IMG/VR virus record: IMGVR_UViG_3300035698_013002
Coordinates: 1-20,786 of that record
DNA length: 20,786 nt
Reading direction: 5' to 3' (one strand)
Source: a virus
The translations under genes were made by a program, and so were the position numbers. Shown in pieces: positions 358-10,393 of the stretch. Under the pieces are notes generated by a model, which searched no databases, was not told the origin of the DNA, and saw only the letters and a program-made list of their open reading frames with translations. Within the stretch, counting starts at the first letter, position 1. The number at the start of each line of letters is the position of its first letter.

Positions 358-389
358 TTTGGAAATGCTTGACAGATGTTGTATATTTG
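358..389 (+). promoter_or_regulatory. Bacteroidota-type promoter P1
   Basis: TTTG at 358-361, a 20-nt spacer, then TATATTTG at 382-389. This matches the Bacteroidota primary sigma consensus (TTTG near -33, TAnnTTTG near -7). Transcription should start at about 394-396, at the head of the structured non-coding region rather than next to a start codon. Confidence 0.75.
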
Positions 390-394
390 CAAAA

Positions 395-677
395 GTATTA
401 ATCATAAGTGAGAAAAACCCTGAAGAGGGGCCTGTGGGAAGCAGACAGTACGTGTACTGAAACTGTTGAGTTTAGGATATAACTGATGAGTGAGTATATT
501 GGAGGGGCCATAAGATCTGACAAAGAAGGTATACGAGGTTAAGGAGCGCACTGCTTATCATATAAAAAGAACATCCTAAGTCTGTTCCTGAGATTCTAAA
601 TCTCATAACGTCAGCAATTTACGCTGAAACGTAGGGGCTCCTCATCTCAAACAAGTTGAGATATAGGTAGAGAATAT
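395..677 (+). ncRNA. Structured leader or non-coding RNA, unidentified
   Basis: About 283 nt between promoter P1 and the ATG at 678 has no convincing reading frame. It is dense in local hairpins: CCC/GGG at 418-430, AGTA/TACT at 448-459, AAAC/GTTT at 460-473, GAGAT/ATCTC at 590-604, ACGT-CAGC/GCTG-ACGT at 608-632, and a perfect 7-bp ATCTCAA/TTGAGAT hairpin at 644-662. Two longer-range pairings are possible, 471-478 with 573-580 and 542-547 with 636-641; together they would form a pseudoknot. Pairings of 6-8 bp can arise by chance in this length, so the fold is inference. I found no RNase P, tmRNA, tRNA or group I/II intron signatures. The last hairpin lacks a U-tract, so this could be a long regulatory 5' leader of the 678 gene or a processed ncRNA. 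Confidence 0.5.
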
Positions 678-1067: not shown

Positions 1068-1103
1068 AGCTCCCTTCGACATTCGTTGTTGGGAGCTTTC
1101 TTC
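1068..1103 (+). terminator. Rho-independent terminator T1
   Basis: A 7-bp outer stem AGCTCCC (1068-1074) / GGGAGCT (1091-1097), a TT/TT internal loop, and an inner stem CGAC/GTTG capped by ATTC, followed by a pyrimidine-rich run TTCTTC. It separates the P1 unit from promoter P2. Confidence 0.75.
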
Positions 1104-2666: not shown

Positions 2667-2895
2667 GAGAGCAGTAACGATAGATTTTGATGAATTAAAA
2701 GCACAAGGTAAGATAGTACAGAAGTTTTCATTTGATGATGAGGGAGAGGCATTGAGTGCGTATAAGGATATGCATGAGTCTTTGTATTCATCCCAGAATG
2801 TAATCTTCGGTGACGGAGGAGAGTCATTCAATTTCACATTAGATATTACAATTACCCAACCTTATACAATCACAATGCAAATATATTTAGTATGA
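2653..2895 (+). CDS. Hypothetical protein (80 aa)
   Basis: An 80-residue protein starting 14 nt before the upstream stop. The N-terminal half is charged and helical (DELKAQGK, then DDEGEALSAYKDMHES). The C-terminal half is beta-rich with alternating Thr/Ile (DITITQPYTITMQIYL). No family recognised. Its stop (TGA 2893-2895) overlaps the ATG of the phosphoesterase gene, so the two are probably translated together. Confidence 0.5.
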   Translation: MEDLRRAVTIDFDELKAQGKIVQKFSFDDEGEALSAYKDMHESLYSSQNVIFGDGGESFNFTLDITITQPYTITMQIYLV

Positions 2896-4157
2896 AGAAA
2901 ATATATCAATACGATAGAGAAGGAGATCTCAAAAAGGCATGGAAAAGTACAGTAGCTGCGGCTAAAGAATTTGGTGTAGACGAGTCTTCAATAAGGAAAG
3001 CAGTGAGCCGTAATGGTACATCTGTTGGTTATTTTTGGAGTAGGGAAAAGTTAGGAAATTTCTTTGAAACAGATCTTAGTCCAGACCTAGATGAAGTGAT
3101 AGAATCTAACGACAAGTTAGAATACTCTTTACAGAAGGTACGGGACAAGCAAAGGATAGGAAAAGCTAAAAATAGGAGTAGTTATAGGTTCTACAATATG
3201 ATAGAAACCATGAGTACTGCTCTTGAGGATCAATTGGAGTCTATTGCTTTCAATGAACCTGTAGCAGTACCAACGGTAACTAAACATGGTAAGACTTTGT
3301 TAGTTCAGCTTTCGGATGCACATTTCAATGAAGAGATAGACTTGCCACATAATCAATATGACTTCTATGTAGCCTCTAGTAGGATGCAGAAACTGGCTAC
3401 AAAGATTAAAGGCTACGCTGGTGATACTTCTAAAATTATAGTTGCTATGACTGGTGATATGATTAATAGTGATCGCCGCCTGGATGAAATGCTTAATATG
3501 GCGACCAATAGAATGAAAGCCAGCTTACTAGCAACTTCATTGATTTCTTACTTTTTAAAAGACCTAGCAACAGTTGCTCCACTAGAAGTATTAGCTGTAA
3601 CTGGTAATGAAAGTCGTATCCACGACGAGTGGGGACTGACAGATGTAATGTTAACAGATAATTACGATTATCTAATTTTCAATATGCTGAAGGCAGTTTT
3701 AAAGGATCACCCTTATATTACCTTTATAGATAGTAATCCACAGGAAGCTGTGGTAGAGATTAATGGTTTAAAAATATTAGTAACTCATGGAACAATGTAC
3801 AAACAAGCTACTCAAGAGCGTATACAAAAGACCTTTGGTCGTTACGCTGCTTGTGGCATTACTCTGGATTATATTATCTTTGGTCATATTCACTTTGCTA
3901 ATATCGGTGATATTTTTGCTAGAAGTGGTTCCATTTCTGGGGGTAATACTTATTCTGAGTATGGCCTTGATCTTGTTACTAAGGCTTCTCAGAATTTGCA
4001 CATTATAGACGAGAATGGAGAGATGGACAATATTCGAATGGATCTTCATAATGTTGATGGTTATCCCGGTTATCCTATTAATGATGACATTGATGCGTAT
4101 AATGCATTGGGGAATAAGAAAGTTTACAAAAAATACACAGTAATAGTAGTGAAATAA
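2892..4157 (+). CDS. NUMOD1-like / calcineurin-like metallophosphoesterase fusion
   Basis: A 421-residue protein with two parts. Residues 3-52 read as a NUMOD1/IENR1-type DNA-binding repeat (I-Y-Q-Y-D-R-E-G, then S-T-V-A-A-A-K-E-F-G-V and S-S-I-R-K-A-V, ending G-Y-F-W). A charged linker (about 65-115) leads to a calcineurin-like phosphoesterase with metal-site motifs in order: D142-A-H144, G188-D189, G238-N239, T298-H299-G300 and G331-H-I-H334. The usual GNH-D/E motif is GNES here, so the catalytic His is replaced while the metal-binding Asn is kept. Family members cleave phosphodiesters or phosphomonoesters (SbcD/Mre11 nucleases, phosphatases). The DNA-binding domain suggests a nucleic-acid substrate, but this is inference. 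It overlaps both neighbours by 1-4 nt. Confidence 0.75.
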   Translation: MKKIYQYDREGDLKKAWKSTVAAAKEFGVDESSIRKAVSRNGTSVGYFWSREKLGNFFETDLSPDLDEVIESNDKLEYSLQKVRDKQRIGKAKNRSSYRFYNMIETMSTALEDQLESIAFNEPVAVPTVTKHGKTLLVQLSDAHFNEEIDLPHNQYDFYVASSRMQKLATKIKGYAGDTSKIIVAMTGDMINSDRRLDEMLNMATNRMKASLLATSLISYFLKDLATVAPLEVLAVTGNESRIHDEWGLTDVMLTDNYDYLIFNMLKAVLKDHPYITFIDSNPQEAVVEINGLKILVTHGTMYKQATQERIQKTFGRYAACGITLDYIIFGHIHFANIGDIFARSGSISGGNTYSEYGLDLVTKASQNLHIIDENGEMDNIRMDLHNVDGYPGYPINDDIDAYNALGNKKVYKKYTVIVVK

Positions 4158-5842: not shown

Positions 5843-8800
5843 ATGATAGAAGTTAATAAATACCAAACTCCACTTTCAGAGGAGATGCTAAAGCCACTTA
5901 ATAAAGAAGATAGGGCTGAGTTCTTTAATGCTTTAGATAATATTGCCTTTGTGTGGAATCTAATCTCCCCTAATAGAGGTTACGCTAAGGATCTAAAAAG
6001 AGATGAATATGGTAGAATTCTAGTAGAGATAACGAATCCCCATATTCTTGAGGATACTGACTACTTCAGAGAGGCTGCTATTCATTTTGAAACACACGGT
6101 CTCTATACAAATCTAACTCCTAATGCACATCCAATGTCTGAATATTTCAGGTTTTGGAAAGAGGAAGCACGGCGTTGCAGAGAGGGTCATATACGAGCAG
6201 CAGACGGAGAATGGATTCCAGGTGATTATTATTACTACTTGAATTACTCTCCTATTTTACTATCTAAAGAGAGTGGCAAGCACCACATTGTAACTAGAGT
6301 AGAAGGATTCCCTAAGTTTTGGGATGGGAGTTATCTCTACTATCATTACATGGAACAAGCCCGTCAAAAGGGTCAACATACTAATTGTTTGAAGTGTAGG
6401 GGGCGTGGATATTCTTTTGAGGGAGCATCCTTACTTGGAAAGGTTTTTATACTCGGTGATCGTGATGAAGATTCAAGGGATAAACAAAGTGCCTTTGCTA
6501 TTGCAAATGAGAAAGAATTTCTTATTAAAGATGGTATTCTAAATAAATTTACTGATAATATCAACTGGTGTGCTCAACATACTCCATTTCCTAGAAACCG
6601 ATTAAAGGATTCTTTAGATAATATGGTGTGGACAATGGGTTATAAGGATAAGGCTACCCAGAGAGTAAGTGGTACTGAGAATGAAGTTGCTGGAGTATCA
6701 TTAAAAAATGATCCTCAAAAAGCTCGTGGCAAGCGCGCTTGTAGGATACAATGGGAGGAATTTGGTAAGTTTCCTCATGTACTTACGGCCTGGCAAGTAG
6801 CTAGGCCATCTGTAGAAGATGGTGAAGTTGCTTTTGGTCAAATGAATGGTTACGGGACAGGAGGAACCTTAGGTGCAGATTTCATTGCTGCAGAGGAAAT
6901 GTTCTATAATCCAGTAGGATATAACATTATGGAGCTTCCTAATGTCTATGATTTTGGAACAGATGGTACTTCTAAGTGTAGTTTCTTTCATGGAGAATAT
7001 CTTAATAGAAATAAGTGTTATGATAAGGAAGGAAATTCTGATGTTATTAAAGCACTCATTGAGGTCTTTCTAAAACGTTCTAAGATTAAAGGAGGAACCT
7101 CTGATCCAAATGCTATCGTACAGGAGAAGGCTGAGGCTCCTATAGTACCACAGGAAGCTGTAATGAGGCGTGAGGGTTCTATCTTTCCAGTAATGGATCT
7201 TAAAGAACATCTTGCCGAGATATCTTCAGATATAGGCAAATTTACTGCCCCTCACTATGTAGGTGATCTTTACTTTACTGGTGATGGTGAAATTAAGTGG
7301 AGAATTAATCATGACAGAGTTCCCATTAGAGATTATCCAATTAAGGACAAAGAACGTCTTAATAAGTATGGTGCTATTGAAATCTTCCAACAGCCCATAC
7401 GAAGTGTAGAAGGTAAGATACCGTGGTTGAGATATATAATTGGAGTTGACCCTATTGACGATGATTATTCTACTACTGACTCTTTAGGAAGTGCATTTGT
7501 ATTTGATAGATTCAACGATCAAATAGTAGCAGAATATACTGGTAGGCCAACTACAGCAAATGAATTTTATGACATAGTGTATAGATTAGCACGTTTCTAC
7601 AATGCTATTATCAACTATGAGAATGACAAAAAAGGACTCTTTACCTATTTCACACATCGTCATGCTCTCCATTATCTAGCAGATACTCCACAGATACTAA
7701 GGGATATGGATTATATTAAAGATCCTAGGATGTATGGAAATAAGGCTCACCCATATTCTCAAAAGGTGTATACCACAAAAGGCATAAAACAGTGGGGAGA
7801 TGTAAAGATAGGAGATTATCTTTTTGATACTTTTGGTGGGAAAACAAAAATAATAGATATCCCTTTTAATAGTGAATCAGACATCTATGAAATAACCTTA
7901 AGAGATGGCAGAAAAATAAAGGCCACTAACAATCATTTATGGATGGTAATTGATGGAATGTCACATGGACGTAAAAAAGTTCGTACACTGTCTACAGTTA
8001 AAATGTTAAGCCACTATTATAGAGACAAAGGAAAATACAAAGAATATCGTTACTATTTGCCTAAGAATAATGGAGTTAGTTATAGAAAAAAGAAAGTCCC
8101 CATTAACCCATATTTTTTGGGATTAATGTTGGGAGATGGGAGTTTTACAAACTCAAAACATCACAATGCTAGTTTTTCCTCTTCCCTAGAAGATATGAAT
8201 TTTTATATGGAATATCTTGGTTATTCTTATATTACTTATGATGATAGGCACCACAATATCCGATTTAAAACTTTTGGGGAAAAAGCAGCTAATTTAAAAT
8301 TAAGCGATGTTAAATCTAGAACTAAATTTATACCAGATCTTTACAAATACAATCATAAAAATGTTCGCTTAGAAGTATTAAGAGGTTTACTAGATACTGA
8401 TGGATCTGTGGGATATGGAGGTAATCCTGAATATTGTTCAGTATCAAAAGTCCTTGCAGAGGATGTTGTAGAGTTGGCTAGAAGTTTAGGCATTAATTGT
8501 AATCTTAATGAGTTTACTAATTCTTTTGGAAAAGTCTACCAAGTAAGATTTTATACGAAAGAGAGAATTTTTAATTTACCTAGAAAAGCTAAGAAACAAA
8601 AAATAACTAAGAATAGGGCTTTTAAGACGGCTATTACTAAAATAGAAAAAGTAGGGAGAGAGAAAGCTAAATGTGTTACTGTAGATTCTAAAGACAGTTG
8701 TTATCTTATAGGAGACTTTGTAACAACTCATAATTCTAAAGGAACCAACTCAAGTAAAAACATTAATGCGTGGGGACGTAGAATGCAAGCAGACTGGATG

Positions 8801-9130
8801 CGGGAGATTGCAACCGGTGAGAAAGAGAGTTATCTAGATGAGAAAACAGGAGAGGAAATCGAAAGAGTGCCTTTACTGAATTGTCAGAAGGTTCGGTCAG
8901 TAGCTTACATAAAAGAGGCAGTAGCGTGGAATCCTGATGCCAACTTTGACCGCATTGCGGCTATGGGTATGTGTATGATACTCAGAGAGGAACTGGCTAA
9001 ATTTGAGGCCGCAGAAACAGTCAGAATTACTAAAACTAAGTCTAGGGATGATTTCTTTCTTAGGAAAGACAGAGAAGGGGAACGCTATGGTCGAGGAAAA
9101 TATCAAGCTCAAATTATTGGAAGAATCTAA
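5843..9130 (+). CDS. terL: Terminase large subunit, precursor with intein
   Basis: A 1095-residue precursor; removing the 330-residue intein (635-964) leaves 765 residues, normal for a large terminase. It pumps DNA into the procapsid with an ATPase and cuts concatemers with an RNase H-fold nuclease. ATPase: KCRGRGYS at 184-191 is a deviant Walker A with the lysine first and Tyr at the usual Lys position, like lambda gpA (KSARVGYS). Walker B is a strand ending W304-E305-E306. Nuclease: I-G-V-D536, Y-E593-N-D near 592-595, and D1036 (N-F-D-R-I-A-A) in the C-terminal extein are the likely metal ligands. The intein interrupts G-N-K / S-K-G-T inside the nuclease domain, so the nuclease should be active only after splicing. 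No Shine-Dalgarno is seen at ATG 5843; the context is A/T-rich. Confidence 0.93.
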   Translation: MIEVNKYQTPLSEEMLKPLNKEDRAEFFNALDNIAFVWNLISPNRGYAKDLKRDEYGRILVEITNPHILEDTDYFREAAIHFETHGLYTNLTPNAHPMSEYFRFWKEEARRCREGHIRAADGEWIPGDYYYYLNYSPILLSKESGKHHIVTRVEGFPKFWDGSYLYYHYMEQARQKGQHTNCLKCRGRGYSFEGASLLGKVFILGDRDEDSRDKQSAFAIANEKEFLIKDGILNKFTDNINWCAQHTPFPRNRLKDSLDNMVWTMGYKDKATQRVSGTENEVAGVSLKNDPQKARGKRACRIQWEEFGKFPHVLTAWQVARPSVEDGEVAFGQMNGYGTGGTLGADFIAAEEMFYNPVGYNIMELPNVYDFGTDGTSKCSFFHGEYLNRNKCYDKEGNSDVIKALIEVFLKRSKIKGGTSDPNAIVQEKAEAPIVPQEAVMRREGSIFPVMDLKEHLAEISSDIGKFTAPHYVGDLYFTGDGEIKWRINHDRVPIRDYPIKDKERLNKYGAIEIFQQPIRSVEGKIPWLRYIIGVDPIDDDYSTTDSLGSAFVFDRFNDQIVAEYTGRPTTANEFYDIVYRLARFYNAIINYENDKKGLFTYFTHRHALHYLADTPQILRDMDYIKDPRMYGNKAHPYSQKVYTTKGIKQWGDVKIGDYLFDTFGGKTKIIDIPFNSESDIYEITLRDGRKIKATNNHLWMVIDGMSHGRKKVRTLSTVKMLSHYYRDKGKYKEYRYYLPKNNGVSYRKKKVPINPYFLGLMLGDGSFTNSKHHNASFSSSLEDMNFYMEYLGYSYITYDDRHHNIRFKTFGEKAANLKLSDVKSRTKFIPDLYKYNHKNVRLEVLRGLLDTDGSVGYGGNPEYCSVSKVLAEDVVELARSLGINCNLNEFTNSFGKVYQVRFYTKERIFNLPRKAKKQKITKNRAFKTAITKIEKVGREKAKCVTVDSKDSCYLIGDFVTTHNSKGTNSSKNINAWGRRMQADWMREIATGEKESYLDEKTGEEIERVPLLNCQKVRSVAYIKEAVAWNPDANFDRIAAMGMCMILREELAKFEAAETVRITKTKSRDDFFLRKDREGERYGRGKYQAQIIGRI
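7745..8734 (+). other. Class 3 intein with LAGLIDADG homing endonuclease
   Basis: Codons 635-964 of terL encode a 330-residue intein. Ala1 stands where Cys/Ser is usual (the AHPYSQKVYT start aligns with the CLSYETEILT start of DnaE inteins), and the G-D at about 21-22 closes block A. Block B is T61-x-x-H64 with Trp66; block F has Cys310; the C-terminus is T328-H329-N330, followed by Ser+1. Trp at B:12, Cys at F:4 and Thr at G:5 form the WCT triplet that defines class 3 inteins, in which the block F Cys is the first nucleophile. Two LAGLIDADG motifs are present, LGLMLGDG (intein 125-132) and LRGLLDTDG (212-220), so the homing endonuclease looks intact. Splicing would join G-N-K to S-K-G-T-N. 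The N-terminal boundary is inferred; Ser5 is the alternative. Confidence 0.88.
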
Positions 9131-9155
9131 TATTTTATTATTAAGTTTATGAATA

Positions 9156-9176
9156 CCCCTAAGTTCTGCTTCGGGG
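9156..9176 (+). repeat. Left-end hairpin of the IS element
   Basis: Stem CCCC-T-AAG pairs with CTT-C-GGGG around a TTCTG loop, with one T/C mismatch in the stem. In this family the transposase recognises such a hairpin as single-stranded DNA. Confidence 0.7.
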
Positions 9177-9190
9177 ATGAATTAAACATA

Positions 9191-9222
9191 TTTGTTGGTT
9201 TCTGTAAATATACGTATATTTG
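9191..9222 (+). promoter_or_regulatory. Bacteroidota-type promoter P3 for tnpB
   Basis: TTTG at 9191-9194, 20 nt, TATATTTG at 9215-9222. The tnpB ATG (9227) follows after four bases, so the message is predicted to be leaderless, with the same geometry as P2. The promoter lies inside the IS element, so the element brings its own expression and may also feed the portal gene downstream. Confidence 0.7.
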
Positions 9223-9226
9223 TAAT

Positions 9227-10393
9227 ATGTTAAAAGGATTCAAATACAGATTATATCCTACTAAACTGCAATCTGAATTGCTTAATAAGCATATTGGGAG
9301 TAACCGTTTTATATACAACCTGGCTTTAGAAACTAAGCAAACAGCGTATGCCGGGAATAAAGTCAATCTATCATGCTTTGATCTTAACAAACAATTACCA
9401 GACTTAAAAAAGGAACTTCCATGGTTAAAAGAGATTAACAGCCAATCACTGCAAGCCCCTATAAGAAATCTCGACAATGCTTTTACTAACTTCTTCAAGG
9501 GCCATGCTGATTTTCCTAAGTTTAAATCTAAGCATAGAGGATCACAATCTTTCAATATTCCCCAAAGTATTCTAATCAAAAATGATATATTGATCATACC
9601 TAAATTTCGTGAAGGAATAAAGATCACATTACATCGTCCTACAAAGGGACTAATCAAACAGGCTACTATTAGCCGAACACCTACCGGAAAATACTTTATT
9701 TCTATCCTTTGTGATACTGGTGATTCAGTGTTAGATAAATTACCTGTTAAAGAGAAATCTTCAGTCGGTATTGATTTGGGGATAAAATTATTCTTAGTTA
9801 CTTCAGAAGGAGAGGTATTTGATAATCCTAAATATCTGCGTAAAGCAGAGTCAAGATTAAAATATACCCAATCTAAATATTCAAAATACAAGGGTAATAG
9901 AACCAAGCACAGGTTGACAATCCTACATGAAAATGTAACCAACCAACGTAAAGACTTTTTACACAAAGCTTCATACAAATTGATCAGTGAGAACCAAACG
10001 ATCTGTATTGAAGATTTAAATATCTCTGGTATGTTAAAAAACCATTGTCTGGCACAATCAATAACTGATGCAAGCTGGTCAACGTTTGTAACGATGCTGG
10101 AATATAAAGCAGAATGGTATGGTAAGAACATCTTGAAGATAGGTCGGTTTGATCCATCCTCAAAGACATGCTCTGAGTGCGGATATATCAATAAAGAACT
10201 TACACTTAAAGACAGAGAATGGACCTGCCCTAAGTGTAGTTCATTTCTTAATCGTGATATAAACGCTGCTGTCAACATAAAGTCATTTGCTTTAAAAAAT
10301 TATGTGTCTGGGACGGACACTCAAATTCAGAACGAACTACCGACATTAGTCGGAGTGCTGACTTCTGATGCCCCTCAGCTTGCTGCGGGGTAG
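9227..10393 (+). CDS. tnpB: TnpB RNA-guided nuclease
   Basis: A 388-residue TnpB. I start it at ATG 9227 (MLKGFKYRLYPT), the conserved beginning of the family; the open frame from 9149 runs through the left-end hairpin and the promoter, so its first 26 codons are not believed. RuvC residues are complete: D183 (G-I-D-L-G), E262 (I-E-D-L) and D344 (N-R-D-I-N-A-A). The zinc finger is C315-S-E-C318 and C334-P-K-C337. TnpB proteins use an RNA from the 3' end of their element to cut DNA next to a short target-adjacent motif; they favour persistence of the element by cutting empty donor sites. The last codons overlap the right-end hairpin and the presumed guide RNA scaffold. All catalytic residues are present, so the enzyme is probably active. 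Confidence 0.92.
   Translation: MLKGFKYRLYPTKLQSELLNKHIGSNRFIYNLALETKQTAYAGNKVNLSCFDLNKQLPDLKKELPWLKEINSQSLQAPIRNLDNAFTNFFKGHADFPKFKSKHRGSQSFNIPQSILIKNDILIIPKFREGIKITLHRPTKGLIKQATISRTPTGKYFISILCDTGDSVLDKLPVKEKSSVGIDLGIKLFLVTSEGEVFDNPKYLRKAESRLKYTQSKYSKYKGNRTKHRLTILHENVTNQRKDFLHKASYKLISENQTICIEDLNISGMLKNHCLAQSITDASWSTFVTMLEYKAEWYGKNILKIGRFDPSSKTCSECGYINKELTLKDREWTCPKCSSFLNRDINAAVNIKSFALKNYVSGTDTQIQNELPTLVGVLTSDAPQLAAG

Follow-up and report, generated by a model that had tools for sequence, protein, structure and literature searches.

The window analysed here, a virus record of 20.8 kb taken at its full length, carries a large terminase gene (5843-9130) nearest to those of Steigviridae crAss-like phages and a portal gene that matches a phage portal family. 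About 5 kb upstream of these two genes lies the region under study, a promoter followed by a long stretch that appears to encode a structured RNA (Table 1). A LAGLIDADG domain lies in an intein-like insertion of the large terminase (positions 7742-8740; residues about 634-966 of the protein), and a related insertion is found at another site of the terminase protein in cr111_1 and DAC15. Between the terminase and portal genes, a TnpB-like protein with OrfB_IS605 and Cas12f1-like TNB domains is encoded (9149-10393), with a CCCC..GGGG stem at the 3' end of its gene (10370-10391). This gene is considered to be an insertion because it is missing from L012, a second crAss-like contig. The latter was reached through the exonuclease-like gene of the window (2892-4157; 79% protein identity). 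Among phage records, the product of this gene best matches cyanophage and Pseudomonas phage proteins rather than those of other crAss-like phages.

Table 1. Features of the RNA locus in the window (RNA letters are given for hairpins of the RNA; double change, both partners of a pair differ between the window and L012).
Feature	Position	Strand	Remarks
Bacteroidota-type promoter	359..389	+	TTG 359-361, 20-nt spacer, TATATTTG 382-389; assigned from sequence, like the promoter type in L012
Putative structured non-coding RNA	395..667	+	about 270 nt; ends inferred; supported structure 418-662
Hairpin H1 (CCCU/AGGG)	418..429	+	identical in the window and L012, hence uninformative for covariation
Hairpin H2	441..466	+	inner stem 446-450 x 455-459; 4 double changes
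Possible long-range helix X	470..581	+	470-477 x 574-581, reaching the H4 loop; 1 double change, 2 single changes; one pair does not form in L012
Helix Q	484..560	+	484-490 x 554-560, directly 3' of the CACUG motif (549-553); counterpart in the marine family
Hairpin H3	494..534	+	494-499 x 529-534; conserved CCAUAAGAU in the loop; 3 double changes
Long-range helix Plong	542..642	+	542-547 x 637-642; pseudoknot with Q; 2 double changes
Hairpins H4, H5, H6	569..627	+	569-587, 589-605, 611-627; one double change in H5, two in H6
3' hairpin H7	644..662	+	AUCUCAA/UUGAGAU (L012 AUCAGAA/UUCUGAU); 2 double changes
ORF, 66 aa	678..878	+	follows the RNA directly; L012 has an unrelated ORF at this place
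Small hydrophobic protein, 61 aa	862..1047	+	41% identical counterpart in L012, farther downstream
Stem AGCTCCC/GGGAGCT	1068..1097	+	T tract weak; transcription unit probably ends here; new promoter at 1134

Bacteroidota promoters follow the consensus TTG-N(about 20)-TAnnTTTG. The element in front of the region, described in a sequence-only reading of this DNA as a full-match promoter, indeed fits this consensus in full, and the homologous RNA of L012 is likewise preceded by a promoter of the Bacteroidota type. A second promoter of this kind is present in the window at 1134; the surrounding segment (1114-1175) is 79% identical to positions 2869-2930 of L012, which lie at a different place in that contig, as if promoter segments move. 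Behind the first promoter, no credible open reading frame extends across 388-677: all three forward frames contain stops in the window and L012 alike, and no ORF of at least 40 aa covers 461-677. Thus, the earlier statement that the region lacks a credible gene stands after comparison of the two sequences, neither of which has a conserved reading frame there. Zero matches at gathering scores were obtained for the entire window against Rfam 15, the search that had been proposed along with the claim that no known class of RNA is visible, and the RNA region alone gave only chance-level matches at E values up to 10, with no riboswitch family matched. ARAGORN predicted neither tRNA nor tmRNA. The repeated motifs listed previously are partly where they had been placed: AGGGGCC at 426-432 and CTGAAAC at 457-463 are correct, while their second copies are shifted by one position, to 503-509 and 624-630, respectively; the motif GTAGGGGC is located at 631-638. 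The CTGAAAC repeat was dropped as a feature of the RNA for lack of conservation in L012, where GAGGGGCC (425-432) is kept.

BLAST comparison of the RNA region with L012 yields a match of 306 columns with 69% identity (E about 4e-15). The homologous stretch is intergenic and is found at the same genomic place, between genes collinear with those of the window, and a covariance model built from the window sequence alone retrieves it at 128 bits. All 49 nested pairs form in both sequences and 14 of them are changed on both sides, versus 0-2 when the partners are slid and 7.1 on average when the 3' letters are shuffled; the structure was picked with both sequences in view, these being the only two known of the window type, and the pair counts are supportive rather than an independent test. 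Compensatory changes are exemplified by AUCUCAA/UUGAGAU versus AUCAGAA/UUCUGAU and by CAGUA/UACUG versus AGUUA/UAACU in the window and L012, respectively. The consensus fold of the hand-adjusted alignment is better than that of each of 300 column shuffles (300/300; z -6.6). The folding energy of the single sequence is unremarkable (z -1.08), and for this reason one sequence alone would make a weak case for a fold. The window and L012 show a real RNA fold, in which the pseudoknotted long-range helices are also kept.

The homologue with its compensatory changes, for which a search had been recommended, allows the earlier structural proposals to be judged. The local hairpins are real by this comparison, despite the ordinary energy, and the interlocking long-range stems are supported in the form of Plong, Q and X, the last being partly broken in L012. 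Helix Q consists of seven pairs in the window and six pairs with different bases in L012; it comes nearer to an independent test than the other helices because it was searched for after the marine family introduced below had shown Q directly 3' of CACUG. A further long-range pairing, Y (433-437 x 508-512), is compatible with the structure of both sequences. Pairing of GAGGGGCC with 636-643 is possible in the window and less supported than Plong. In the gut crAss-like phages inspected, the same type of promoter stands shortly upstream of a tRNA array; in phi14:2, it precedes a small ORF. The comparable place of these arrays, together with the ordinary single-sequence folding, is what could be said for reading the region as intergenic DNA without structure, or as a tRNA remnant, whose hairpins are due to chance. 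Conservation and covariation, and notably the compensatory changes, already disfavour this explanation, no tRNA signal is present in the region, and we regard it as the least probable of all. Scarcely more probable is a ribozyme, for example one of the group I kind. The strands of the RNA, which run in the order Q 5', H3, Plong 5', Q 3', hairpins and Plong 3', do resemble P3-P4/6-P7-P3-P8-P7, but the RNA region has no match to the group I intron model RF00028 at E values up to 10, the RNA lies outside any gene behind a promoter of its own, and the P7 counterpart varies freely in sequence.

Eighty related crAss-like loci were retrieved by terminase, and a scan for promoters with a long gap behind them revealed RNA candidates in L032, L036 and L043-L045. 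The L044-type RNA, carried by a marine clade, is present in 16 of the 80 loci and is similar to the window RNA in length and genomic position. In an alignment of eleven distinct L044-type sequences (A8), 33 consensus pairs are changed on both sides, 96% of cells are paired versus 38-50% when slid, and the covariation score is 0.465 versus 0.209 in shuffles. The covariance model of the marine family (R3) also matches L024 and L118, both contigs from a phage with a portal only 26% identical (E 4e-6); in L024 this RNA stands behind a promoter. A core-motif pattern run over all viral contigs returned 17 stretches, all of them in the present set or in two extra contigs confirmed by R3. By contrast, crAss001, phi14:2, cr85_1, cr126_1, cr111_1, DAC15 and gut Steigviridae have no R3 match, and neither the marine RNAs nor the other candidates match Rfam. 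In L036 (3014-3440), a promoter is followed by about 300 nt of non-coding sequence, a terminator-like stem and then tRNA genes, without similarity to the window RNA, and in L032 (489-851), about 320 non-coding nt lie behind a promoter. Although these two candidates occupy comparable places, no common fold could be demonstrated.

The window, L012 and marine RNAs have the same layout: CACUG is directly followed by the 3' strand of Q, H3 begins within 4 nt of the 5' strand of Q, and the 5' strand of Plong is located between H3 and CACUG, with its 3' strand near the 3' end. The window and L012 both show the full layout, which is reproduced by 0 of 3000 column-shuffled alignments keeping CACUG, and Q plus H3 by 2 of 3000. 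The descriptor used was written after the structures had been seen, and when its limits are set loosely it lacks selectivity in 3 Mb of phage DNA. Besides this core, with H3 within Q and the Plong pseudoknot, the window RNA has in common with the A8 sequences a Bacteroidota-type promoter directly in front, its non-coding nature, a similar length and a position a few kb ahead of the terminase. The marine RNA differs in its 5' domain and its GAAUUAA hairpin, and is usually closed directly behind by an intrinsic terminator, which the window RNA lacks and from which L044, L051 and L095 deviate too. In an R3 search with filters off, neither the window RNA nor that of L012 scored above noise. Judging from the layout, a common origin of the window-type and marine RNAs is likely, a grade kept at that level because R3 fails to link the two types.

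Models R1 and R2, applied to the roughly 80 crAss-like loci and to whole records, detected no convincing homologue beyond L012. Weak matches in L025, L038 and cr111_1 fall within coding sequence, and those in L031 and L081 were judged to be due to chance. A 15-nt exact motif occurs in ten viral contigs without further similarity, and longer motifs shared by the window and L012 were found across viral contigs in L012 only. When the RNA was compared with phages by BLAST, chance matches or none at all were obtained, and a core motif had no match in plasmids. Two crAss-like contigs in MAGs were identified in a scan of genome contigs, with the RNA detected in neither. L112 and L113 are crAss-like terminase contigs in MAGs labelled Saccharibacteria and Endomicrobium, possibly owing to binning errors.

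What follows the RNA bears on how it might act. The terminator scan reported no strong intrinsic terminator between the RNA and the ORFs at 678 and 862, and both ORFs belong to the unit of the RNA, which probably ends at the stem near 1097, an element absent from the output of the scan. The RNA could therefore be a cis-acting 5' leader, attenuator- or riboswitch-like, that controls the 862-1047 protein and its neighbour within this one unit. It is unlikely that a leader would serve ORF 678 specifically, given the unrelated ORF at its place in L012; a leader for the 862-1047 protein is possible because that protein has a counterpart behind the RNA in L012, and L044, L051 and L095 also have a hydrophobic ORF of about 70 aa directly behind the RNA, ahead of the terminator. 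However, three other ORFs separate the L012 counterpart from the RNA, no riboswitch family is matched, and most marine RNAs are followed by a terminator and a promoter-like site ahead of the next gene. Taken together, we give a leader roughly one chance in four, which makes it the strongest of the rivals.

Among the marine loci, an intrinsic terminator lies about 40-70 nt behind the RNA in L038, L048, L049, L050, L078 and L117, similar stems 3' of the RNA were recognized by eye in L081 and L094, and a promoter-like site usually comes next. This succession of terminator and new promoter-like site in most members looks like the anatomy of a free-standing RNA gene. A terminator placed immediately next to an RNA that itself directly follows a promoter, as in many counterparts, would also suit a cis-acting RNA that makes RNA polymerase read through terminators in the genes ahead of the terminase, as in put- or EAR-like antitermination. 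Yet, the new promoter-like site past the terminator would make read-through unneeded in most counterparts, and no known antitermination RNA is matched in Rfam; this mechanism is improbable, ranking after a leader and before a ribozyme among the rivals that remain.

The reading we prefer, with a probability of about 0.55, is that positions 395-667 or so of the window encode a phage RNA with a pseudoknotted core whose most likely mode of action in infection is in trans, probably through protein binding. Two observations favour trans action: the window and L012 have different ORFs right behind the RNA, and most of the similarly built marine RNAs are closed by a terminator of their own. From the host-type promoter, an RNA of about 270 nt would be made during infection; it would fold into several hairpins around the core formed by Q, H3, Plong and CACUG, and the folded RNA would then act in trans, probably on a phage or host protein. 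Among the options offered by the sequence-only reading, a regulatory RNA, a ribozyme-like element or a long leader, the structured non-coding RNA is thus retained and a trans-acting one favoured, a leader for the 862-1047 protein is possible, and nothing shows a ribozyme. The locus is best read as encoding a structured RNA that had not been described before in crAss-like phages and is probably trans-acting. More tentatively, and with rather less than even odds, deeply diverged members of the Crassvirales (window/L012, marine and L024 types) may have a class of pseudoknotted RNA genes that has not been described before and whose product acts in trans during infection, as either a ribonucleoprotein or a ribozyme of a kind unknown from other phages. 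CrAss-like phages rank among the most abundant Bacteroidota viruses. A promoter-driven RNA kept in divergent members at a similar place ahead of the packaging genes offers a concrete target for studying the use of RNA in infection, and the models could serve the annotation of many environmental phages.

In openly accessible literature, we found no structured non-coding RNA besides tRNAs in crAss-like phages, and no described relative of the present family was found there or in Rfam. RNAs of this general kind are already known: GOLLD and ROOL are phage-associated structured non-coding RNAs whose role is largely unknown. The window RNA resembles them in being structured, non-coding and associated with a phage, but GOLLD and ROOL, the structures of which have been described (PMC12286853), are much larger and have other folds. 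The packaging RNA (pRNA) of phi29-like phages is likewise structured and lies in the broader vicinity of packaging genes; it differs in size and fold, and the window RNA, which lacks an Rfam match to either system, is several genes away from the terminase. With group I introns, the window RNA has a similar long-range order of strands in common, whereas its own promoter, its location outside genes and the missing model match set it apart from them.
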